Shown: positions 46,332 to 60,204 of the stretch, one piece after another | Numbering within the stretch: the stretch's first letter is position 1 | How the letters are laid out: each line of letters starts with the position of its first letter | Source of the DNA: Bacteroidales bacterium | GTDB lineage: Bacteria; Bacteroidota; Bacteroidia; Bacteroidales; UBA932 | DNA length: 64,000 bases | Assembly: GCA_016287075.1 (NCBI GenBank) | Contig: JAEEVC010000003.1 | Span: forward strand, 83,494 to 147,493 | Reading direction: 5' to 3' | Position numbers and translations under genes: made by a program | Notes under the pieces: generated by a model | Seen by the model: the letters and a program-made list of their open reading frames with translations, nothing else | The model's database searches: none | Told to the model about the DNA's origin: nothing

Positions 46332-47105
46332 TCATTTCCACAGAGCAGGGAAGTCCAAAATGCGGGAGGAGTTTTCCGGGTGAAACAGCAAGTACTTGAA
46401 ATCCTGAGCTTTGAGACGAAAATCCGTCCTGTCGCACACCTGCTTCATCCGGCATCTCAGCTGCTCGCCGGTTGCAATGCCCTCCCGTTGCGAAAGATAG
46501 TTCATATCCGGTTCGCTTCTGGAGCGCAGAAACATGGCATCATAGAAATCCCGGCCTTTTCCGCGGTGGAGAATGGTGGATAGTTTCATTGCATACAGCG
46601 TAGCGTCTGAAGGTGAGGGTATCCTGAAATAGAATCCGTCTCTGTTCACAGTGAACATATCTCGCTGATAATCCACTCCCTGGTCCTGTGCCTCAATCTT
46701 CAACACAAACTTCTTTTCCCGGTAAGGGGATAATCCCAGGTCGTAAAGCAGCTGCGGGAACTGAATGGTCCTGCGGAAAGCCGTCAGGGCATCACTCTCC
46801 TTTTCCTTGGCGACAGCAGGAAGACCGTTCCGCCTTAGAAAGCGGACGACATCATCGGTCAGGCTTGCGAACTCCTCCTGCGAGAGATTCTTGCAATCAA
46901 AGTCCAAATCCTCGGAAAACCGGTCTATCTGCCTGAGGAGTCGTAGGGCGGTGCCGCCGATAAATGTCAGTTTCCCAATCAGAGAGTGGGAGGATAAAAA
47001 GTCCAGGACCATCAGCTCCAGGTATTCCTTATAGAGTTGGATGTCCGTGTCCGGACTTTCCGGAAAACCGGGATAAAATGCTCTGATGTTTTGCAGGTCA
47101 AGCAT
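46332..47105 (-). CDS. AbiEii-type nucleotidyltransferase toxin
   Basis: A 257-residue protein of the AbiEii/AbiGii family. The nucleotidyltransferase signature is clear: FIGGTALRLLRQIDRFSEDL with the following Asp-Phe-Asp (GG...D-x-D), then a conserved LYAMKLSTILHRGKGRDFYD that matches the K/R-x-x-DxxD region. In known AbiE systems this partner is the toxin, acting by adding nucleotides to tRNA or a similar target, and protects populations against phages by abortive infection. It overlaps the antitoxin gene by 8 bp (46332-47105 and 47098-47712). Its GC content is well below that of core genes nearby, as expected for acquired DNA. Confidence 0.85.
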   Translation of the reverse strand: MLDLQNIRAFYPGFPESPDTDIQLYKEYLELMVLDFLSSHSLIGKLTFIGGTALRLLRQIDRFSEDLDFDCKNLSQEEFASLTDDVVRFLRRNGLPAVAKEKESDALTAFRRTIQFPQLLYDLGLSPYREKKFVLKIEAQDQGVDYQRDMFTVNRDGFYFRIPSPSDATLYAMKLSTILHRGKGRDFYDAMFLRSRSEPDMNYLSQREGIATGEQLRCRMKQVCDRTDFRLKAQDFKYLLFHPENSSRILDFPALWK

Positions 47106-47712
47106 AGGTATTCTCCATTACTGCGGCTCTTTGTGAGAGAGCCTTATTGTCAAATCGCACTAAAAAGGCACGGAAACGCTTCCAGTCAAACTCTTCGCGC
47201 ATGGCATCCCTGTCAAGGCGAAGATTCTCCATATCGCGGTCCGATTTGTATTCAGGGTGGAAGTAAAGCAGGTCCAGCAGGGCTTTCTCCGGGGTTGCCA
47301 TAAGAGAGGGCAAACCGTCCCTCGGCTGGAGGGGCTTATACCCGAAAAACAGGTTCGGGGAAACGTGACGATAGGAATAATAACCGATCGGGGTGTCAAA
47401 TACGGCGGTCTTCAGCGTACTCACGGATGTAAGCGCAAGGACAGTTTCAGGGATTATTTCGTGCCACGAGAGGACATACTCCAGGCTGAGGTAGGACGGG
47501 CAATAGATTTTACCGGCCGCTGCCATACGCACGTCCGCCATTCCTGCCTCATCGGGGAAAAGGTACCAGCCCTGGCGGATGCGCAGGATTTTTCCCTCAC
47601 CCTTCCAGCGCCTGAGATTGGAGGAAAGGCTGTTGTCGCTGCTTCTCTCTATACTGTTCAAGGAAAAGACACCTTGCCCCGAGTATTGCTTTTTGAATTC
47701 GTAATAGTTCAT
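47098..47712 (-). CDS. AbiEi-type antitoxin/regulator
   Basis: A 204-residue protein. The N-terminal 60 residues are a winged helix (LSSNLRRWKGEGKILRIRQG) typical of AbiEi antitoxins; the C-terminal part has IYCPSYLSLEYVLSWHEIIP, LTSVSTLKTAVFDTPIG and MATPEKALLDLLYFHPEYKS, also typical of the family. In type IV AbiE systems it represses its own promoter and counteracts the toxin. The ATG at 47712 is selected as it lies 18 nt from a complete promoter. Confidence 0.85.
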   Translation of the reverse strand: MNYYEFKKQYSGQGVFSLNSIERSSDNSLSSNLRRWKGEGKILRIRQGWYLFPDEAGMADVRMAAAGKIYCPSYLSLEYVLSWHEIIPETVLALTSVSTLKTAVFDTPIGYYSYRHVSPNLFFGYKPLQPRDGLPSLMATPEKALLDLLYFHPEYKSDRDMENLRLDRDAMREEFDWKRFRAFLVRFDNKALSQRAAVMENTYA

Positions 47713-47730
47713 TATATTTCCGAAACTGTG

Positions 47731-47761
47731 CAAATATACACAATTTCGGAAATAAAACAAA
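47731..47761 (-). promoter_or_regulatory. Promoter for abiE operon
   Basis: Minus strand: TTTG (47761-47758), 19-nt spacer, TATATTTG (47738-47731) then C. It ends 18 nt before the antitoxin start. AbiEi proteins usually bind near their own promoter, but I see no clear operator palindrome here. Confidence 0.75.
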
Positions 47762-47859
47762 GGGTTAGACAAAGACCATCACTGATCATGTTGTCCCATA
47801 GTTGTACCCAAATTTACAAAGGAGTCGTAAAGTGTTGAGACACGGATACTTCTGAATAT

Positions 47860-52411: not shown

Positions 52412-53206
52412 CTATTCGTCCCACGGATACGTATCGTCATAATCGTAGTCATGCCCCGACAGGCCCCCTGTCCTTTCAATGACCACGAAGCTGGTATGCT
52501 GGAAGTCGTCGTTGCTGTCTGATATGGTGATCGTCGCCTTGCGGAGGCCATCCCCGTCCGCAAGAGGCTGGGAGCTGAGGCGCAGCGTCACCTGGTCGAT
52601 GCGCTCCACCGTCAGCCAGGAAGCATCGGTGGAAGGCGTCCACTTGTAGCAGTTGGTGACAATATGGGCATCCCTCTGACCGCCGGCGCTTATCTCAAGC
52701 ACGTAAGAGAAAAGCGACAGATCCCATTGATACTCATCCGTATAATTGAAATAGACCCGCCCCTGCTGGACCACACGGATGGACTTGCTCTTCTGGCCGG
52801 GGGCGGACACGGTTACCTGGGCTTTGCGGGCTGCGAGGTTCCGGAAGAGCCCGTTTTCATCCCGGGTATCATAGTCTCCTACGGTAATGACGACCGTCGC
52901 TTTCGCCGACATGGTCTCTTCGGTTTTATCGACTTTACACCAGGCCGCATCGGACGAAACAGCCCATCCGGCAAGGTTCGTCTCAACGATCAGGGTGGTT
53001 CCGTCGGCGTCGGCATTGAAGATGACCTCGTAATCGTCGGGCACTTCCCGGCTGAGGTTGATCATCAGTTTGAAATAGTCTCCCGCAGGGGTAGGCGGCG
53101 TAACATCGGGCCCCTCCGGCCCGGGCTTGTCCGGCTCTTCGCAGCCGAAGGGAATCAACGCTCCGAGCGCCAGGGCTGCGACCCTTGAAAGCATTCTTTT
53201 GTGCAT
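52412..53206 (-). CDS. BACON-domain lipoprotein
   Basis: A 264-residue lipoprotein (lipobox LIPFGC; a Pro-rich segment follows). Two BACON-type repeats are visible: residues about 75-155 (VSSDAAWCKVDKTEETMSAK, then RKAQVTVSAPGQKSKSIRVVQQGR) and about 165-250 (NCYKWTPSTDASWLTVERID, then LRKATITISDSNDDFQHTSF). BACON modules are thought to bind carbohydrate or mucin-type host glycans. It is encoded 13 bp upstream of the large fimbrillin-like protein. Confidence 0.72.
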   Translation of the reverse strand: MHKRMLSRVAALALGALIPFGCEEPDKPGPEGPDVTPPTPAGDYFKLMINLSREVPDDYEVIFNADADGTTLIVETNLAGWAVSSDAAWCKVDKTEETMSAKATVVITVGDYDTRDENGLFRNLAARKAQVTVSAPGQKSKSIRVVQQGRVYFNYTDEYQWDLSLFSYVLEISAGGQRDAHIVTNCYKWTPSTDASWLTVERIDQVTLRLSSQPLADGDGLRKATITISDSNDDFQHTSFVVIERTGGLSGHDYDYDDTYPWDE

Positions 53207-53394
53207 GGTGCGATATTTTGTCAAATATCGCTACACGACCCGCATCCCGCTCTCTCAATTCAAAGAAACAATACTATCAAATCCTTTAATCTTGACAATC
53301 TGCGCGTTCCGGCCCGGCCGCGCCGGTCCCTCTTTTCCCGTCAAGCAACGTCAAATCAAAAAAAATTCGTATCTTGCCACGAATAAAGCAGATA

Positions 53395-53709
53395 ATGAAA
53401 ATGGACGTTTTGATCGGTGAAGAGGGCGGCGCCCTCGTTTGTACCCTGCGGGGACGGCTGGACACGCCGGCATCCCAGGAAGTGATGAAGGCGGTGCAGC
53501 CGCTGCTGGAACAGGCGGACCGGGAAATCATCCTCGACTGCCGGGACCTGGAGTACATCAGCAGTTCCGGGCTGCGCATCCTCCTGATGCTCAGGAAGGA
53601 AACGGGCCGGAAGGGCGGCCGGCTGGTCATCCGCGGCATCCGCGAAGCCATCCGCCAGGTTTTCCTGATGACCGGTTTCTACAACCTGTTCGAAATCCGG
53701 GAGGCATGA
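53395..53709 (+). CDS. STAS-domain anti-anti-sigma-like protein
   Basis: A 104-residue single-domain STAS protein of the SpoIIAA/RsbV type. The conserved phosphorylation loop is intact: ILDCRDLEYISSSGLRILL, with Ser57 in the position phosphorylated in RsbV/SpoIIAA. It has no other domain. In partner-switching systems the unphosphorylated STAS protein binds the RsbW kinase and releases its target; the PP2C phosphatase dephosphorylates it. Here the fused phosphatase/kinase is encoded four genes downstream. The start is placed at 53395 (MKMDVL). Its stop overlaps the next start (ATGA). Confidence 0.9.
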   Translation: MKMDVLIGEEGGALVCTLRGRLDTPASQEVMKAVQPLLEQADREIILDCRDLEYISSSGLRILLMLRKETGRKGGRLVIRGIREAIRQVFLMTGFYNLFEIREA

Positions 53710-54800
53710 TGGAAGATTATGGTCTGGACCTGCACGGCCGGATGATCCTGGAAGAGTTCCGGGAGCTGGAGCCCGTCCTCTTCAAGATGAAGGACACGGT
53801 CCTCTCGCTGATCCGGAAGGACATCGCCGACAAGGGACTGATGGTCACGGCGACGGAGGCCCGGGTCAAGCAGGAGCAGAGCCTGGCCGGGAAACTGGAG
53901 CGGAAAGGGTCCAAATACGCGACGGCGGAGGACATCACCGACCTTCTCGGCGTCCGGGTCATCACCTTCTACAGCGATGACGTGGACAAGATCGCCGCGA
54001 TGGTCGAGAACCTGTTCGACATCGACCGGGAGAACTCGGTGGACAAGCGGAAGATGCACCATCTGGACAGCTTCGGCTACAATTCCCTCCACTATATCTG
54101 CCGGATTCCGGCGGCGGTCTGCAGCGATCCGGACTGCCCGCGGATGAACGAGATTCCCTTCGAAATCCAGATCCGGACGGCCCTGCAGCACGTCTGGGCG
54201 ACCCTTTACCATGATTCCGGCTACAAGTCCGGCGTAGAGATCCCGGTCGGTTACCTGCGGGACATGAACCGCCTTGCGGGGATGCTGGAGCTGGTCGACG
54301 AGCAGTTCTGCCGGATCCGTACGGGCATCAACGACTACCGCCGGCGCGTCCAGGCACTCGTCGCCGACGGCTGCCTCGAAGAGGTGGAACTGGACGGCGA
54401 CACCTTCAAGAGTTACCTGGCGATGCAGCCCTTCGACCACCTGAACCGGCGGATCGCGGCGCTCAACCAGGCGGAGATTCAGGATGTCTCCCTCCAGAAG
54501 TTCCTGCCGGTGCTGCGCGGGCTCGGGATGAAGACGCTCGGGGATGTGGACCGGATGGTCAAGGAATGCTCGGAGGATGCCTACCGGCTCGCCGCCTACC
54601 AGCTCGGGGTCACCGACATCGACATCATCACCTCGACGGTCGCCCCCCAGAACCTGTGCCTGGTCTATGTCCTGCGGAAGGGCGTCGGCCGCGCCGGCCT
54701 GAAATATGTCTTTGACACCCTGAACGGGGAATCGGCCGGGAACGAAGCCCTTTCCGAGATGGTCTATGCCCAGGCGGAAGAAATGAAAATGATTGAGTAA
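53706..54800 (+). CDS. Small alarmone synthetase (RelA/SpoT synthetase domain)
   Basis: A 364-residue protein with an N-terminal RelA_SpoT nucleotidyltransferase domain (about residues 40-200) and a C-terminal helical/mixed region without TGS, ACT or HD domains. Motifs: DLLGVRVITFYSDDVDKI, HHLDSFGYNSLHYIC (the GYxSLH-type loop) and PFEIQIRTALQHVWATLYHD (QIRT signature). It should make (p)ppGpp or pGpp from GTP/GDP and ATP. The ~160-residue C-terminal part (ITSTVAPQNLCLVYVLRKG near the end) is unlike the short tails of RelP/RelQ and may be regulatory. The start ATG at 53706 overlaps the STAS stop by 4 bp. Confidence 0.85.
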   Translation: MMEDYGLDLHGRMILEEFRELEPVLFKMKDTVLSLIRKDIADKGLMVTATEARVKQEQSLAGKLERKGSKYATAEDITDLLGVRVITFYSDDVDKIAAMVENLFDIDRENSVDKRKMHHLDSFGYNSLHYICRIPAAVCSDPDCPRMNEIPFEIQIRTALQHVWATLYHDSGYKSGVEIPVGYLRDMNRLAGMLELVDEQFCRIRTGINDYRRRVQALVADGCLEEVELDGDTFKSYLAMQPFDHLNRRIAALNQAEIQDVSLQKFLPVLRGLGMKTLGDVDRMVKECSEDAYRLAAYQLGVTDIDIITSTVAPQNLCLVYVLRKGVGRAGLKYVFDTLNGESAGNEALSEMVYAQAEEMKMIE

Positions 54801-54811
54801 CACTTGCTTCC

Positions 54812-55393
54812 ATGGGATATAACGCTTCATTGGATACCTCCCTGCTGGACAGGGCCATCGAATTCGCCGTGCGCGCCCATGCGGGAACCGAGCGGCGCGG
54901 CAAGGGCTTCCCGTACATCGTCCATCCGATGGAGGCGATGGCCATTGTCGCAACGATGACCCCCGACCAGGAGGTCCTCGCCGCCGCCGCGCTCCACGAT
55001 GTCGTCGAGGATACGGATGTGACGGTGGAGGAGATCCGTGCGGCGTTCGGCGACAGGGTCGCATCCCTGGTGGCCTGCGAGAGCGATATCGTACTGGCGG
55101 AACTGTCGGAGGAGGCCAGCTGGCCGGTCCGGAAGCAGGCGGCGATCGACCGCCTCGCCGCCGCATCGCACGATGCGAAGGTCGTCGCCCTCGGCGACAA
55201 GCTGTCGAACATGCGGGCGATCGCCCGGGATTACGCCGTCCAGGGCGATGCGCTCTGGAACCTCTTCCATGTCAAGGACCGGGCGTCCCATGCCTGGCAT
55301 TACCGGGGCCTTGCCTCTTCCCTGTCCGAACTGTCGGAAACATTTGCCTACCAGGAGTTTGTTGAACTGATTGCGCGCGTTTTCCATGATTGA
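54812..55393 (+). CDS. Small alarmone hydrolase (HD, Mesh1-like)
   Basis: A 193-residue HD-domain protein. The metal-binding set of RelA/SpoT-type hydrolases is present: YIVHPMEAMAIVA (His), ALHDVVEDTDVTVEEI (HD and the ED dyad), and ALGDKLSNMRAIARDY (Asp). Together with the usual AAFGDRVASLV it indicates an active Mn-dependent (p)ppGpp pyrophosphohydrolase. It starts 11 bp after the synthetase gene, so synthesis and degradation are encoded as separate neighbouring proteins, not fused as in Rel/SpoT. It overlaps the next gene by 8 bp. Confidence 0.87.
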   Translation: MGYNASLDTSLLDRAIEFAVRAHAGTERRGKGFPYIVHPMEAMAIVATMTPDQEVLAAAALHDVVEDTDVTVEEIRAAFGDRVASLVACESDIVLAELSEEASWPVRKQAAIDRLAAASHDAKVVALGDKLSNMRAIARDYAVQGDALWNLFHVKDRASHAWHYRGLASSLSELSETFAYQEFVELIARVFHD

Positions 55394-56228
55394 TGACATC
55401 CGTCCCGTCCCGATTGACCTGTCGGATTATGAATTTGCCGGCGAAGGGGCCAACGGGGCCAGCTACAACCACCGCACCGACCCGGATATCCTGCTGAAGC
55501 TCTATACCCGGGGCGACATGACCCAGCCGCTCGATGAGCTGCTGACCGCCCGGAAGGTGTTCGCGGCGGGCATTCCGACGCCCGAGCCCGGCGACCTGGT
55601 GACGGACGGGCAACGGGTCGGCCTGCGCTTCCGCCGCATCCGCGGGAAGCGCTCCTATGCCCGCGCCATCGGCGACGATCCCTCGACGGTCGGCCACTAT
55701 GCCGTCCTTTTCGCCCGGATGAGCCGGCAACTGCATGCTACGCATGTGGATACGTCCCTGTTCGAGAATGTCAAGGACCGCTACCTGCGCCTGCTCGCCG
55801 CCAATCCGTTCTTCACGGATGACCAGAAGGACAAGATCGCCGCGTACATCCGCCGGGTGCCCGATACGGACACGGCCCTCCACGGCGACCTCCAGTTCGG
55901 CAATGTCATCTTTGCCGGCGACCGCCACTATTTCATCGACCTCGGCGATTTCTGTTACGGCCATCCCATGTTCGACCTCGGCATGGTCTATATCACCGGG
56001 AAACTGAACGATCCCGGTTTTACGCGGGAGGCCTTCCACATGGAACCGGAGACGGCTTCGGCTTTCTGGGATGCCTTTGCGCCCGCCTATTTCGGCCCCG
56101 ATGCCGACCTCGCCGCCCTCGAGCGCGAGGTGCGGATTTTCGCCGGCCTCAAGACCCTGATTATCGAACGGGATACCGGCCGGCCGATGCCCGAGTTCCG
56201 TGCGATGCTGGAAGGAACTATATATTAG
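55386..56228 (+). CDS. APH-fold phosphotransferase
   Basis: A 280-residue kinase-like protein. The phosphotransferase core has TALHGDLQFGNVIFAGDRHY (HxDxxxxN catalytic loop) and FIDLGDFCYGHPMFDLGMVY (metal-binding DxD-like), and a glycine-rich start EFAGEGANGASYNHR. It belongs with aminoglycoside/choline/hydroxyurea phosphotransferase-type enzymes, and resembles the group often annotated as TIGR02172-type proteins in Bacteroidota. The substrate is unknown; its place in this operon makes a small-molecule or protein kinase role in the signalling system possible. It overlaps the hydrolase gene by 8 bp and ends 6 bp before the phosphatase gene. Confidence 0.8.
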   Translation: MIDDIRPVPIDLSDYEFAGEGANGASYNHRTDPDILLKLYTRGDMTQPLDELLTARKVFAAGIPTPEPGDLVTDGQRVGLRFRRIRGKRSYARAIGDDPSTVGHYAVLFARMSRQLHATHVDTSLFENVKDRYLRLLAANPFFTDDQKDKIAAYIRRVPDTDTALHGDLQFGNVIFAGDRHYFIDLGDFCYGHPMFDLGMVYITGKLNDPGFTREAFHMEPETASAFWDAFAPAYFGPDADLAALEREVRIFAGLKTLIIERDTGRPMPEFRAMLEGTIY

Positions 56229-56234
56229 AAGATT

Positions 56235-58415
56235 ATGAGCATCCTGAACCCGGTCCGCTGGTTTGCCCGGCAAGGCTTTCTGATTATCCTGACCGCCGCA
56301 ATCATCCTCGAAGCGACGGCAGTGATCCAGTTTTATTATGCCCAGAAGGGCCTCCGGGAAGAGGCGACGCACCGGGCGGAGAGCGAACTGGAAGCGACCG
56401 GACTGGAAATCGACGACGTGATGGACCAGGTCGAATCCGCCGTCCGGAACAATATCTGGCTTGCGCAGACCCTCCTGACCTACCCGGACACGCTGCGCCA
56501 TCTCCCCGAAATCCTGGTGGCGAACAATCCGGTCATCTACGGCAGTACCATCGCCCTGGAGCCGGATTACTATCCCGGCCGGGAGCGCCTGTTCTCTCCC
56601 TATGCCTACCGGGAAGGGGACGCCGTCCGGACGAAGCAGCTCGGCTCGGATGCGTATGATTACACCGCCATGGAGTGGTATGCCGATGCGAGCGAAACCG
56701 GCCATTGGAGCGAACCGTACTTCGATACGGGCGGGGGAGAGGAGATGATGACCACCTTCTCGATGCCGGTGACGGACCCTTCCGGCCGCCGCGTCGGCGT
56801 CATTACGGCGGACATGTCGCTCGAATGGCTGACGGACCTGGTGGGCGACCTGAAAGTCTATCCCGGCGCCATCAGCATGATGTTCAGCCGGACCGGCCAG
56901 GTCATGGTCTGCCCCGCCGAATCCCTCGTCATGCGCCGGAACATCGCAGAACTCACGGCTTCGATGGAGGATACCGCGGCCATCCGGCTCGGCAGGGAAA
57001 TGCTCGCCGGGAAGAGCGGCAACATGCCGATCCGGGCCCAGGAAAAGGTCCGGGACGTGTTCTATGCCCCGGTCGAGCGGACAGGGTGGTCGATGGCCAT
57101 CGTCATTCCGCGGGAGGAGATTTTCCGCGGGGTCAAGCGGATCGGCATGATCGTCGGATGCCTGCAGCTGCTGGGCCTGCTGATGCTGGCGCTGATCCTC
57201 TACCGGACGGCGGCCGGGCGGAAGAAACTGCAGGCTGCCGAAGAACGGAAAGAACGGATGGACAGGGAGTTGCAGATTGCCAGCGGTATCCAGATGGCGA
57301 TGCTCCCGAAAGTCTATCCGCCCTTCCCGGAACGGAACGAACTGGACGTTTTCGGCTTGCTTGTCCCCGCCAAGGAGGTCGGTGGCGACCTGTTCGATTA
57401 TTATCTCCGGGGCGACTCCCTGCTGTTCTGCATCGGGGACGTGTCCGGAAAGGGGATCCCCGCCTCCCTCGTAATGGCGGTGACCCGCAGCCTTTTCCGC
57501 TCCGTATCCGCCCACGACGACATTCCCGGCCGCATCGCCGGGTTCATGAACGAGTCGATGGCGGAGATGAACGACAGCAGTATGTTCGTGACCCTGTTCC
57601 TTGGCATCCTGGACCTGTCCACGGGACGGCTGCGCTATTGCAATGCCGGCCACAACGCGCCGCTGACCGTCACGGCGGACGGGCAGGCCCGCTTCCTGTC
57701 GGTCCTCCCGAACCTGCCGCTGGGCGTTGACGACCATTATTTCTTCGTGGACGAGGAATTCCAGCTCGCGCCCGGCGACACCCTTTTCCTCTATACCGAC
57801 GGCCTGACCGAGGCGGAAAACGCCGGGAAGGAACTGTTCGGGGAAGAGCGTCTGCTCGGTTCGTTCGCATCCCTGGCGCCGCTGGGGGCGCACGCCCAGG
57901 TGACGCATATCGTCGATGCCGTTCATGGACACGTCGGTACGGCGCCCCAGAGCGACGACCTGACGATGCTTTCCATCAAGTATCAGGGCGTCGGCGAAGG
58001 CCCCGCGAGGGGGCGCTGGCTGCGCCTGCACAACGACATCCGCCAGCTTTCCCAACTGGCCGGATTCGTGGAATCCGTCGGGGAAGACGCTTCACTCGGG
58101 CAGACGGACGTGCTGCAGTTGAACCTGGCGGTCGAAGAGGCGGTGACGAATGTGATCATGTATGCCTATCCCGGCGGGACGGACGGACTCGTGGACATCG
58201 AGGCGGTCGTCCGGGACGGCTGGCTCGTCTTCACCATCAGCGACAGCGGCAAGCCCTTCGATCCCACGTCTGCCCGGCCGGTGGATACGTCGCTGTCCGC
58301 GGAACAGCGTCCCATCGGCGGCCTCGGCATCCACCTGGTCCGCCAGATCATGGACGAGGTGTCCTATGCCCGCGTCGAGGACCGGAACATCCTGACGCTC
58401 AAGAAGAAAGTCTAG
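56235..58415 (+). CDS. Membrane sensor-PP2C phosphatase-RsbW fusion
   Basis: A 726-residue protein. A membrane helix (about 15-36) precedes a periplasmic sensor domain of Cache type (about 40-310), then a second helix (about 315-337) and a short coiled coil (AAEERKERMDRELQIASGI). The PP2C/RsbU domain (about 350-600) has AKEVGGDLFDYYL, FCIGDVSGKGIPASLVMA, CNAGHNAPLTV, FLYTDGLTEAENAG and SDDLTMLSIKY, with the metal Asp residues kept. The C-terminal ~125 residues are an RsbW-type GHKL ATPase: LNLAVEEAVTNVIMYAYPGG (N box), TISDSGKPFDP (G1) and GGLGIHLVRQIMDE (G2). Phosphatase and kinase for the STAS protein are thus on one chain. Confidence 0.9.
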   Translation: MSILNPVRWFARQGFLIILTAAIILEATAVIQFYYAQKGLREEATHRAESELEATGLEIDDVMDQVESAVRNNIWLAQTLLTYPDTLRHLPEILVANNPVIYGSTIALEPDYYPGRERLFSPYAYREGDAVRTKQLGSDAYDYTAMEWYADASETGHWSEPYFDTGGGEEMMTTFSMPVTDPSGRRVGVITADMSLEWLTDLVGDLKVYPGAISMMFSRTGQVMVCPAESLVMRRNIAELTASMEDTAAIRLGREMLAGKSGNMPIRAQEKVRDVFYAPVERTGWSMAIVIPREEIFRGVKRIGMIVGCLQLLGLLMLALILYRTAAGRKKLQAAEERKERMDRELQIASGIQMAMLPKVYPPFPERNELDVFGLLVPAKEVGGDLFDYYLRGDSLLFCIGDVSGKGIPASLVMAVTRSLFRSVSAHDDIPGRIAGFMNESMAEMNDSSMFVTLFLGILDLSTGRLRYCNAGHNAPLTVTADGQARFLSVLPNLPLGVDDHYFFVDEEFQLAPGDTLFLYTDGLTEAENAGKELFGEERLLGSFASLAPLGAHAQVTHIVDAVHGHVGTAPQSDDLTMLSIKYQGVGEGPARGRWLRLHNDIRQLSQLAGFVESVGEDASLGQTDVLQLNLAVEEAVTNVIMYAYPGGTDGLVDIEAVVRDGWLVFTISDSGKPFDPTSARPVDTSLSAEQRPIGGLGIHLVRQIMDEVSYARVEDRNILTLKKKV

Positions 58416-59377
58416 ACGAAAATCACCTCCCGACCGTGGAACAGGAACCCGCCTGCGACGACATACTGCCGGCAGGTGGGGGAGAACTGCTCCTCGGTGG
58501 AGAAGTGCAGGTGGCCGGATAGGATGCATTTGAGCAGCGGCTCCTGCCTGAGGTAGGCGATGAAATCGCGGGTGACGCCTTCAGCCTGCTGGAAGCCGTA
58601 GGTCTTGCCGCCGATTTCGGGCAGTTCCGTGTAATCGATGGGGCCCTTGTCCCGCCAGAAGCGGGTATTGGCGCGCCAGATGTCCTCGGTCATGAAGGGG
58701 ACATGCATGCAGAGGACGATCGGGAGCCCTTTTTCCGCTTCCTTCCGGAAACGGGCGGCCTGGTCCTCGGTGACGTAGCCATAGACATCGTCCAGGGTGA
58801 TGAAATTCACTCCGTTCGCGACCTGGGACTGGAAGCGGATGTCGAAGGGATAGACCTGCTGGAGGAGGTCGCGGGTGTTGTCCTTGTAGGCCTCCGTGTG
58901 CTCCTCCCTGGGCTCGCTGTAGCCCATGTCGGTGCTGAATTCATGGTTGCCGACCGCCCCGATGTACTCGGTGCCGAAATACTTCCGCACCAGGTCGAAA
59001 TTCGCCTTGCTCTGCCAGTCGATGAGGTCGCCCGTATGGACCAGGTAATCCACGTGCTGCTTCGCCCAGGCGATCGCGTCCTGCAGCGCCTCTTCCTGAT
59101 GACCGCCGAAGGTGGTCGTGCGTTTCTTGTTGAGCATCAGCTTTTTCTCGTTCTCGTGGGGGTAGGCGGCCGTCAGGTGCGAGTCGGAGATGTGCAGGAC
59201 GGAGAACGGTTTCTCCAGCCCGATGTGCACGGTGGAATAACTGAGGGAAAGGCGTTCCCGCTTGCCGCGGCTGGGGAAAACTTCCGGCCGGTCTTCCGCG
59301 AAGGAGGGAAGCTGGGCCGTCGCGATCAGGGCGCCGGCGCCCGCCAGTTTCCTGAGGAAATCTCTTCTGTCTGTCAT
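58412..59377 (-). CDS. Exported calcineurin-like phosphoesterase
   Basis: A 321-residue metallophosphoesterase. The N-terminus TDRRDFLRKLAGAGALIATA is twin-arginine-like, indicating folded export. The core has LHISDSHLTAAYPH, YLVHTGDLIDWQ, GAVGNHEF, LCMHVPFM and CILSGHLHFST, the complete set of metal ligands. Substrate unknown. The ATG at 59377 is chosen at the start of the export signal; the stop at 58412-58414 overlaps the end of the PP2C fusion gene on the other strand. Confidence 0.85.
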   Translation of the reverse strand: MTDRRDFLRKLAGAGALIATAQLPSFAEDRPEVFPSRGKRERLSLSYSTVHIGLEKPFSVLHISDSHLTAAYPHENEKKLMLNKKRTTTFGGHQEEALQDAIAWAKQHVDYLVHTGDLIDWQSKANFDLVRKYFGTEYIGAVGNHEFSTDMGYSEPREEHTEAYKDNTRDLLQQVYPFDIRFQSQVANGVNFITLDDVYGYVTEDQAARFRKEAEKGLPIVLCMHVPFMTEDIWRANTRFWRDKGPIDYTELPEIGGKTYGFQQAEGVTRDFIAYLRQEPLLKCILSGHLHFSTEEQFSPTCRQYVVAGGFLFHGREVIFV

Positions 59378-59407
59378 GTTTGTTAAATTCAGGTTTTTTC
59401 TTGACAG

Positions 59408-59447
59408 CGAAACAGCAGAAGGCCGGGGAGGTCCTTCTGCTGTTTCG
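59408..59447. repeat. 15-bp perfect inverted repeat
   Basis: CGAAACAGCAGAAGG (59408-59422) and its complement (59433-59447) with a 10-nt loop, in the gap between the minus-strand lipoprotein at 59464 and the phosphoesterase. There is no T tract on the minus strand directly after it, so it is not a classic terminator, though it may act as one or protect mRNA ends. Its GAAACAG...AAGG arm loosely recalls the flank of the 93-bp palindromes. Confidence 0.5.
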
Positions 59448-59463
59448 TCATGTTGCCAGTCCA

Positions 59464-60204
59464 CTATTTGGACTTGTCCTTGAGGGCTTTCTCGATCTGC
59501 TTCTGGACTTCGGGGTCACTGAGCGCCTTTTCCGCTTCGTCCATCGTCTCCTGCATGCTCTTCTGGAGACCCTGGCCGATGATGGTCCGGGCGGCGAAAG
59601 GCTTGTCCTCGCCGTTTTTCCGCTTCTCGAGCTGCTTGACATCCACCATGTAATAGGTGCCGTCCTTGATGAAGTTCCAGGAATAGCTGCCCATGTAGAG
59701 TTCGATGCCGAAGAGGGACTGGGGCTTGCCTTCGTCGAGGACGACCTCGAGGGTCTTCTCGGCCGCCGCCTCGGCGGGATCGCTCTTCTGGGTGAATCCG
59801 TAGACATTGATGCCGCCGTCGGCCGCCTTGGCCGTGGCCGCATAGACCTTCTTCACGTAGGCGATGAAATCGTCACGGTTCAGCGTGCTGTCTTTCGCCA
59901 CGAAGGTCACATAGGAGGCGGACATCTCTTCGCCGAGGAAATCGTACTTGCCGGTTTCCTTGCCGTACTCGAAGTCGGGCGTCACGTCGGCGATGGGGAT
60001 GTTGAAGCGTTTCTTGAACCAGAAAGAGGCCGCTTCGGCGGTGTTCTTCTCACCGTTGAAGGTGTCTTTCGCGATGTTCTCAGCCACCTTCTCGAGGTTC
60101 ACTTTGCCTTCGCCTTCGTTTCCGGCGGCGGCTTTCTTGCCTCCCTTGGGGCCGCAGGCCGTAATGGCGGCGATGCAGAGGAGGGTCATCAATACTTTGC
60201 GCAT
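59464..60204 (-). CDS. Lipoprotein of unknown function
   Basis: A 246-residue lipoprotein (lipobox AAITAC, then GPKGGKK). The mature part starts with a Gly/Ala/Lys linker and has KVAENIAKDTFNGEKNTAEA, KSDPAEAAAEKTLEVVLDEG and IELYMGSYSWNFIKDGTYYM; the last 50 residues form a Lys/Glu helix (QKSMQETMDEAEKALSDPEV). No recognised domain. The ATG at 60204 begins the signal peptide; the longer frame is not used. Confidence 0.65.
   Translation of the reverse strand: MRKVLMTLLCIAAITACGPKGGKKAAAGNEGEGKVNLEKVAENIAKDTFNGEKNTAEAASFWFKKRFNIPIADVTPDFEYGKETGKYDFLGEEMSASYVTFVAKDSTLNRDDFIAYVKKVYAATAKAADGGINVYGFTQKSDPAEAAAEKTLEVVLDEGKPQSLFGIELYMGSYSWNFIKDGTYYMVDVKQLEKRKNGEDKPFAARTIIGQGLQKSMQETMDEAEKALSDPEVQKQIEKALKDKSK

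Follow-up and report, generated by a model that had tools for sequence, protein, structure and literature searches.

A conserved Bacteroidales gene cluster joins partner-switch proteins to a predicted small alarmone synthetase and hydrolase

Introduction

In a partner switch, a PP2C phosphatase and an RsbW-type kinase act oppositely on one STAS protein, and the outputs known for it are sigma factors, with diguanylate cyclases as a further case in Pseudomonas. A 64,000 nucleotide (nt) stretch from a Bacteroidales bacterium (GenBank assembly GCA_016287075.1, contig JAEEVC010000003.1, positions 83,494 to 147,493), here called the window, contains five genes in which the components of such a switch adjoin a predicted small alarmone synthetase (SAS), a predicted small HD-domain alarmone hydrolase and an APH-fold kinase. 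The question that this locus raises is whether a partner switch might set the level of the alarmone ppGpp, an output that would extend partner switching to the stringent response. A sequence-only reading had proposed that the five genes form one circuit of this kind. We find that they belong to a co-inherited unit, a conclusion that is strongly supported, and that the circuit, as judged from domains, motifs and gene neighbourhoods, is plausible.

The five-gene unit

The unit and its parts are listed below by position in the window.

53395-58415, all + strand: whole five-gene unit, in the order STAS, SAS, HD, APH, dCache-PP2C-RsbW
53395-53709, +: STAS-domain phosphoprotein (RsbV/SpoIIAA-like), 104 amino acids (aa); Pfam STAS 1.4e-18, TIGR00377 over cut-off
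53563-53565, +: codon of Ser57, the predicted phosphorylation site, context YIS-S57-SG; from motif and alignments
53706-54800, +: predicted SAS, 364 aa, SYNTH plus C-terminal helical domain; Pfam RelA_SpoT 9.9e-21
54345-54797, +: C-terminal helical domain of the SAS, residues 214-364, candidate docking or regulatory domain; from the structural model
54812-55393, +: predicted small HD alarmone hydrolase, 193 aa; Pfam HD_4 3.1e-21
55386-56228, +: APH-fold kinase of the TIGR02172 family, 280 aa; Pfam APH 6.6e-17, TIGR02172 243.7 bits against a cut-off of 228.2
56235-58415, +: membrane dCache-PP2C (SpoIIE/RsbU)-RsbW fusion, 726 aa; from Pfam and motif positions
56517-57101, +: dCache sensor region; MCP-like_PDC_1 1.6e-26 (residues 95-201), dCache_1 1.9e-16 (residues 140-289)
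57411-57983, +: PP2C/SpoIIE phosphatase domain; Pfam SpoIIE 3.4e-52 (residues 393-583)
58032-58406, +: RsbW-type HATPase domain; Pfam HATPase_c_2 3e-27 (residues 600-724)

Each of the five open reading frames (ORFs) can begin with ATG, the main Pfam matches of all five proteins exceed their cut-offs, and inspection found the motifs intact throughout. The genes, domain content and motifs given by the sequence-only reading were thus recovered, as were its junctions, which are in order a 4-nt overlap, an 11-nt gap, an 8-nt overlap and a 6-nt gap. The nearest long ORF to the left (52412-53224) lies on the opposite strand and the ORF to the right (58412-59464) is convergent, overlapping the end of the unit by 4 nt; hence, the five genes look like one unit.

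The components of a partner switch are all present, namely a STAS protein with its Ser, a PP2C domain with its Asp residues and an RsbW-type HATPase with its Glu and Asn. The nearest solved structure to the STAS protein is 4hyl, followed by SpoIIAA, and Ser57 sits at the position of the phosphorylated Ser of SpoIIAA. The Ser57 column holds Ser in all 40 STAS domains of one alignment and in all 91 unit STAS proteins of another; the phosphorylatable residue noted earlier is intact. In the fusion protein, five Asp columns of the phosphatase domain, presumably the metal-binding residues, are conserved in 83 of 83 aligned relatives, and the Glu, Asn (N-box) and Asp columns of the RsbW domain in 89 of 89. 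Its solved relatives include Rv1364c (3ke6), the best for the phosphatase region, and RsbW (6m36).

An AlphaFold2 model of the SAS (mean predicted local distance difference test score, pLDDT, 89.9) has a confident SYNTH domain and finds 5dec (SAS1/RelQ) as its best Foldseek match, with RelP and SAS2 entries next; the nearest solved structures are the RelP, RelQ and YwaC synthetases. The three synthetase motifs are present in all 103 SAS relatives, and against the RelQ/YjbM equivalog NF053588 the protein scores 55.1 of 320 bits, far under the cut-off. The C-terminal domain, when modelled alone (pLDDT 91.8), is mostly helical; the window's copy gave no Pfam match and no Foldseek match at E≤0.001, and no TPR, the C-terminal domain of DsRel/SAS-TPR synthetases, was detected in it. 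We propose it as a docking site. Lmo0812 (4yf1) is the nearest solved structure to the hydrolase, which shares its HDxxED motif with 97 of 97 relatives, and the catalytic Asp, Asn and Asp of the APH kinase occur in 89 of the 90 relatives taken from such units; the other has a gap there.

The SAS relatives that carry names come from Bacteroidales, Bacteroidia and Fibrobacter records. The SAS of the window and that of locus L051 group with those of Fibrobacter (support 85, quick tree) and not with the other family members of the first draw; transfer between the two groups may be the reason.

Conservation of the cluster

The SAS was detected in 152 of 398 sampled genomes of the family (E≤1e-60). 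We examined 103 loci, one per SAS-bearing genome, of which 93, the window included, were resolvable (downstream sequence of 5.5 kb or more, upstream sequence of 2 kb or more), and partner genes were counted within 9 kb of the SAS. Among the resolvable loci, 89 have an HD gene, 86 STAS, 85 RsbW, 84 APH and 80 PP2C; at least one switch gene is found in 87 and all five functions in 75, in many gene orders. The commonest order (SAS, HD, APH, Cache-PP2C-RsbW, STAS) accounts for 50 of the 103 loci and the STAS-first order of the window for two. When proteins were grouped by one clustering rule, the families of the unit were shared by 93 (SAS), 85 (STAS), 84 (APH, fused forms included), 80 (PP2C) and 70 (unfused HD) loci, with 19 further HD domains fused to APH, whereas, as a control, the most shared flanking family reached only 24 of the 93 loci and the next nine, values unchanged under a looser rule. 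On a quick synthetase tree, the placement of STAS (upstream, downstream or none) changes at least 11 times. Upstream placement alone needs at least five changes, three of these forced by well-supported branches, and the HD-APH fusion state at least four, two of them forced. Hence, the grouping outlasts rearrangement that scatters the flanks; the clustering is beyond chance, and the combination that the sequence-only reading singled out is a co-inherited unit.

The genomes themselves show the same association, as in a first draw all 23 genomes with the SAS (E<1e-100) fall within the 50 of 149 that have a relative of the phosphatase/kinase (hypergeometric 1.7e-13, shared descent ignored). Most SAS-adjacent phosphatases form one clade, in which 18 of 20 rows are SAS-linked and the other two come from genomes with the unit elsewhere. 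The phosphatases beside one synthetase clade derive from at least two and probably three lineages on quick trees: the main one, a variant in L039, L040, L046 and L050, and that of Fibrobacter L067. Two loci are reduced to a STAS and SAS pair: L182 and L081, the latter lying where its contig ends. Such pairs and the several phosphatase lineages beside one SAS clade are the best hints, at the level of gene neighbourhoods, that STAS and SAS may make contact.

In a sample of the phylum, seven of 395 genomes match the synthetase profile (E≤1e-30) and the only full-length match is that of the window; hence, the unit looks like a family-level trait with the addition of Fibrobacter; outside the phylum, the survey consisted of a pattern scan. 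The expectation that alarmone and switch genes would stay together in relatives was borne out in the Bacteroidales family and failed in Fibrobacter, where they are apart in 17 of 18 loci.

Natural fusion proteins

The sequence-only reading had treated the APH kinase as an unexplained additional step, and this needs correction. A search with an HD-APH fusion found 737 proteins, and all of the best 120 carry both domains; with a STAS-APH fusion, 69 proteins were found, 66 of them with both domains and 22 with an RsbW-type HATPase_c_2 domain as well. Since each search started from a fusion, the counts show wide existence, not frequency. The catalytic residues of the kinase are retained in 120 of 120 HD-APH fusions, and in the STAS-APH fusions the Asp, Asn and Asp are found in 68 of 68, 67 of 68 and 68 of 68, respectively. 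Because many natural proteins join APH with HD, with STAS or with both STAS and RsbW, the kinase is, to judge from these architectures, an integral part of such switches. The 22 STAS-APH-HATPase_c_2 proteins (among P0127-P0195; approximately 520 aa, one labelled Clostridiales) appear to be partner switches contained in one polypeptide and built on an APH kinase; the three of them that were scanned have the order STAS-APH-HATPase. A different fusion, of an RsbW-type ATPase to a DAGK/YegS lipid-kinase-like protein, occurs in the variant unit (L039:10503-11807 and L046:9704-11008).

Related enzymes and switches in the source genome

The source genome is a draft assembly of 2.87 Mb in 66 contigs that is 97.71% complete. 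It encodes two long Rel-type enzymes, each with HD, SYNTH, TGS and ACT domains. The usual enzymes of the stringent response are therefore already in place, and the SAS/HD pair of the window is one more input. The SYNTH proteins of the genome are these two, the window SAS and a fourth of 347 aa (G000:C60, L078:1450-3562), which matches the PADLOC defence model PDC-S33 (2.6e-96) and adjoins a SocA_Panacea ORF, making a toxSAS-Panacea-like pair. In the window, two adjacent minus-strand ORFs (46332-47772) resemble an AbiEii/AbiEi-type toxin-antitoxin pair.

Two HATPase_c_2 proteins were found in the genome, that of the window and one in a second switch locus (G000:C27, L077:4785-7189), where a standalone Cache-PP2C-RsbW protein of 701 aa and a STAS protein of 100 aa overlap by 4 nt. 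Cross-talk between this switch and that of the window is possible.

Output and proposed circuit

A sigma factor would be the classic output of such a switch, and the sequence-only reading had held it to be missing. The Pfam scan found no sigma factor in the five-gene unit, and TIGR02980, which covers SigB/F/G-type factors, gave six matches in the draft genome, none over the cut-off (best 114 of 234.35 bits). A SigB-type output was rejected on this ground, and the earlier claim is supported for this draft genome. A GGDEF domain was also sought in the five unit proteins and no match was obtained at E≤0.01.

We lean, if only slightly, towards a reading in which the membrane Cache-PP2C-RsbW protein sets the phosphorylation of Ser57 on the STAS protein, and STAS in turn gates the SAS, the HD hydrolase (or HD-APH) or both, so that ppGpp would be set from an outside cue. 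A ligand is predicted to bind the periplasmic Cache domain and, given the intact motifs, binding would shift the balance of phosphatase and kinase inside one polypeptide, making a one-protein phospho-switch. By analogy with SiaC and SiaD, unphosphorylated STAS may dock on the SAS, likeliest on its C-terminal helical domain, and turn it on, the direction being uncertain. The APH kinase would link the hydrolase to the switch, such that synthesis and breakdown move oppositely, and an outside cue would then probably determine how much alarmone is present, with no part played by the ribosome. A broader proposal, which we regard as possible rather than probable, is that ppGpp is controlled here in a third way, the other two being ribosome-bound Rel and the regulation of SASs at transcription: a transmembrane Cache receptor would set synthesis and breakdown jointly through a STAS phospho-switch, with APH as the bridge suggested by the HD-APH, STAS-APH and STAS-APH-RsbW fusions, and the hydrolase would go off as the synthetase comes on.

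Contrary evidence and alternative explanations

Several observations weigh against this circuit. The SAS of Fibrobacter stands, in 17 of 18 loci, as an HD-SAS pair without switch genes in the stretch examined (less than 3 kb upstream in eight of the 18), although P0005-like phosphatases are present in all 19 genomes in which they were sought; the remaining locus, L067, has a divergent phosphatase/STAS pair and its HD gene on the other strand. The C-terminal domain of the SAS is also retained in Fibrobacter, where no switch adjoins, which weakens the proposal that it is a docking site. Six of the 93 resolvable family loci have no switch gene, and in L051 the HD slot is filled by a cytidylate-kinase-like protein. 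STAS lies downstream of the SAS in 74 of the 93 loci, mostly after the phosphatase/kinase gene, so that adjacency to the SAS is weak evidence. No fusion of the SAS to STAS or RsbW was seen: RelA_SpoT is the only domain in the 120 best of 7811 homologues. Finally, 27 of the 50 genomes with a phosphatase/kinase relative lack the SAS, two of them having a weak SYNTH match. Switch modules without the SAS are therefore common and STAS would have other targets as well; the unit is co-inherited and not exclusive, since Cache-PP2C-RsbW and STAS modules without the SAS are common in the family and one is present in this genome.

The cytidylate-kinase-like gene (PF13189) of L051 (L051:2358-3014) has a counterpart directly upstream of the SAS in L042 (L042:9050-9700), and the family of the latter is common to nine of the 93 loci. 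That the long HD frames of three Fibrobacter loci (L064, L065 and L068) are true fusions was considered and rejected; in L064, the one scanned, Pfam finds no domain other than HD. In the Fibrobacter assembly of L069 (7977-9072) the SAS frame is split in two, with the HD frame adjacent.

Of the other explanations, one that we consider rather unlikely is that STAS and RsbW control the APH kinase, or HD-APH, instead of the SAS; APH would phosphorylate a small molecule or protein, and the SAS and HD enzymes would provide or remove a nucleotide that belongs to this pathway. The STAS-APH and STAS-APH-RsbW fusions with their retained kinase residues speak for this, as do the HD-APH fusions and the lack of any SAS fusion among the best 120 homologues, and L100 and L122 are fusions of the STAS-APH kind with no SAS found in the stretch examined. 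Yet APH is absent from nine of the 93 resolvable loci, two of which (L041 and L203) retain SAS, HD, STAS and PP2C-RsbW, and there is no APH near the STAS and SAS pairs of L081 and L182, though the L081 genome has APH proteins elsewhere. We think it quite improbable that the genes are mere neighbours, the Cache-PP2C-RsbW protein and STAS controlling something else while the alarmone genes are merely transcribed along with them. Many switch modules do stand alone, that of L077 among them, and Fibrobacter mostly has the HD-SAS pair alone, but the clustering persists through rearrangement when the flanks do not, most SAS-adjacent phosphatases belong to one clade, and fusions link HD to APH and APH to STAS and RsbW.

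A toxin-antitoxin or anti-phage module, in which a toxic SAS is checked by the HD hydrolase as antitoxin and the switch is the trigger, would fit the patchy presence of the SAS in the family and its weak match to PADLOC PDC-S33 (4.4e-16), and a SAS adjoining a hydrolase resembles the arrangement of FaRel with a hydrolase antitoxin. It is nonetheless very improbable: the nearest solved structures are the RelP, RelQ and YwaC synthetases, and the genome has a separate PDC-S33 SAS beside a SocA_Panacea antitoxin-like ORF, whereas no Panacea match was found among the four partners of the window SAS (an HD hydrolase does adjoin it). A five-gene unit with a sensor-phosphatase-kinase is also an unusual layout for a toxin-antitoxin system. 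A toxSAS module was rejected as the principal explanation because of the separate PDC-S33/Panacea pair and the proximity of the window SAS to RelP/RelQ folds.

Significance and comparison with known systems

If the partner-switch reading is true, an extracellular cue could set ppGpp. The reading proposes an output for a partner switch in a genome with no SigB-type factor over the cut-off and gives a context for the TIGR02172 kinases, and with the SAS in 152 of the 398 sampled family genomes it is testable in many. Searches of an open-access library listed no paper whose title and abstract showed it to concern a partner switch combined with a small alarmone synthetase. The words ppGpp, alarmone and cyclase are absent from a review of STAS domains (PMC8256260), and a term search for the TIGR02172 kinase label found no paper.

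Rel and RshB were described as typical of eight Bacteroidia genomes, with one to three such proteins each (Atkinson et al. 2011, PMC3153485). The window SAS resembles RelP and RelQ in its SYNTH fold and motifs and differs in its extra C-terminal domain of approximately 150 residues and in falling far under the RelQ/YjbM cut-off. Treponema denticola likewise has a separate small synthetase, Tde-SAS, whose C-terminal regulatory domain, a TPR, acts as a brake on synthesis, and its small hydrolase, Tde-SAH, is also a protein of its own (PMC10434055). Unlike the pair described here, their genes (TDE1711 and TDE1690) have differing locus numbers, and the words STAS and operon are absent from that paper; the C-terminal domain there is a TPR, none being detected here, and T. 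denticola is described as having no long RelA/SpoT homologue, whereas the source genome has two.

The switch proteins belong to the same three domain families as RsbU/RsbV/RsbW, SpoIIE/SpoIIAA/SpoIIAB and the fused Rv1364c, with motifs intact, but in contrast to RsbU/V/W and SpoIIE/SpoIIAA/SpoIIAB there is no SigB/SigF-type factor over the cut-off in the source genome. In Pseudomonas aeruginosa, the anti-anti-sigma factor HsbA interacts with the diguanylate cyclase HsbD (PMC5085249), which likewise places a protein of this type with a nucleotide-messenger enzyme; the HsbD output is c-di-GMP, and the abstract names no alarmone enzyme or APH kinase. The closest parallel in design is with SiaABCD of the same species, where SiaC binds and activates the diguanylate cyclase SiaD (PMC8457831) and its phosphorylation at Thr68 is balanced by the PP2C phosphatase SiaA and the kinase SiaB (PMC7647112). 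In both systems a phosphatase and a kinase set an anti-sigma-antagonist-like protein, with a nucleotide second-messenger enzyme as the output in place of a sigma factor, the gating of that target being at the level of prediction in the unit described here. They differ in that the present unit has a kinase domain of the RsbW type in one protein with the phosphatase and includes an APH kinase, and in that the output is not a cyclase but a predicted alarmone synthetase together with a hydrolase.

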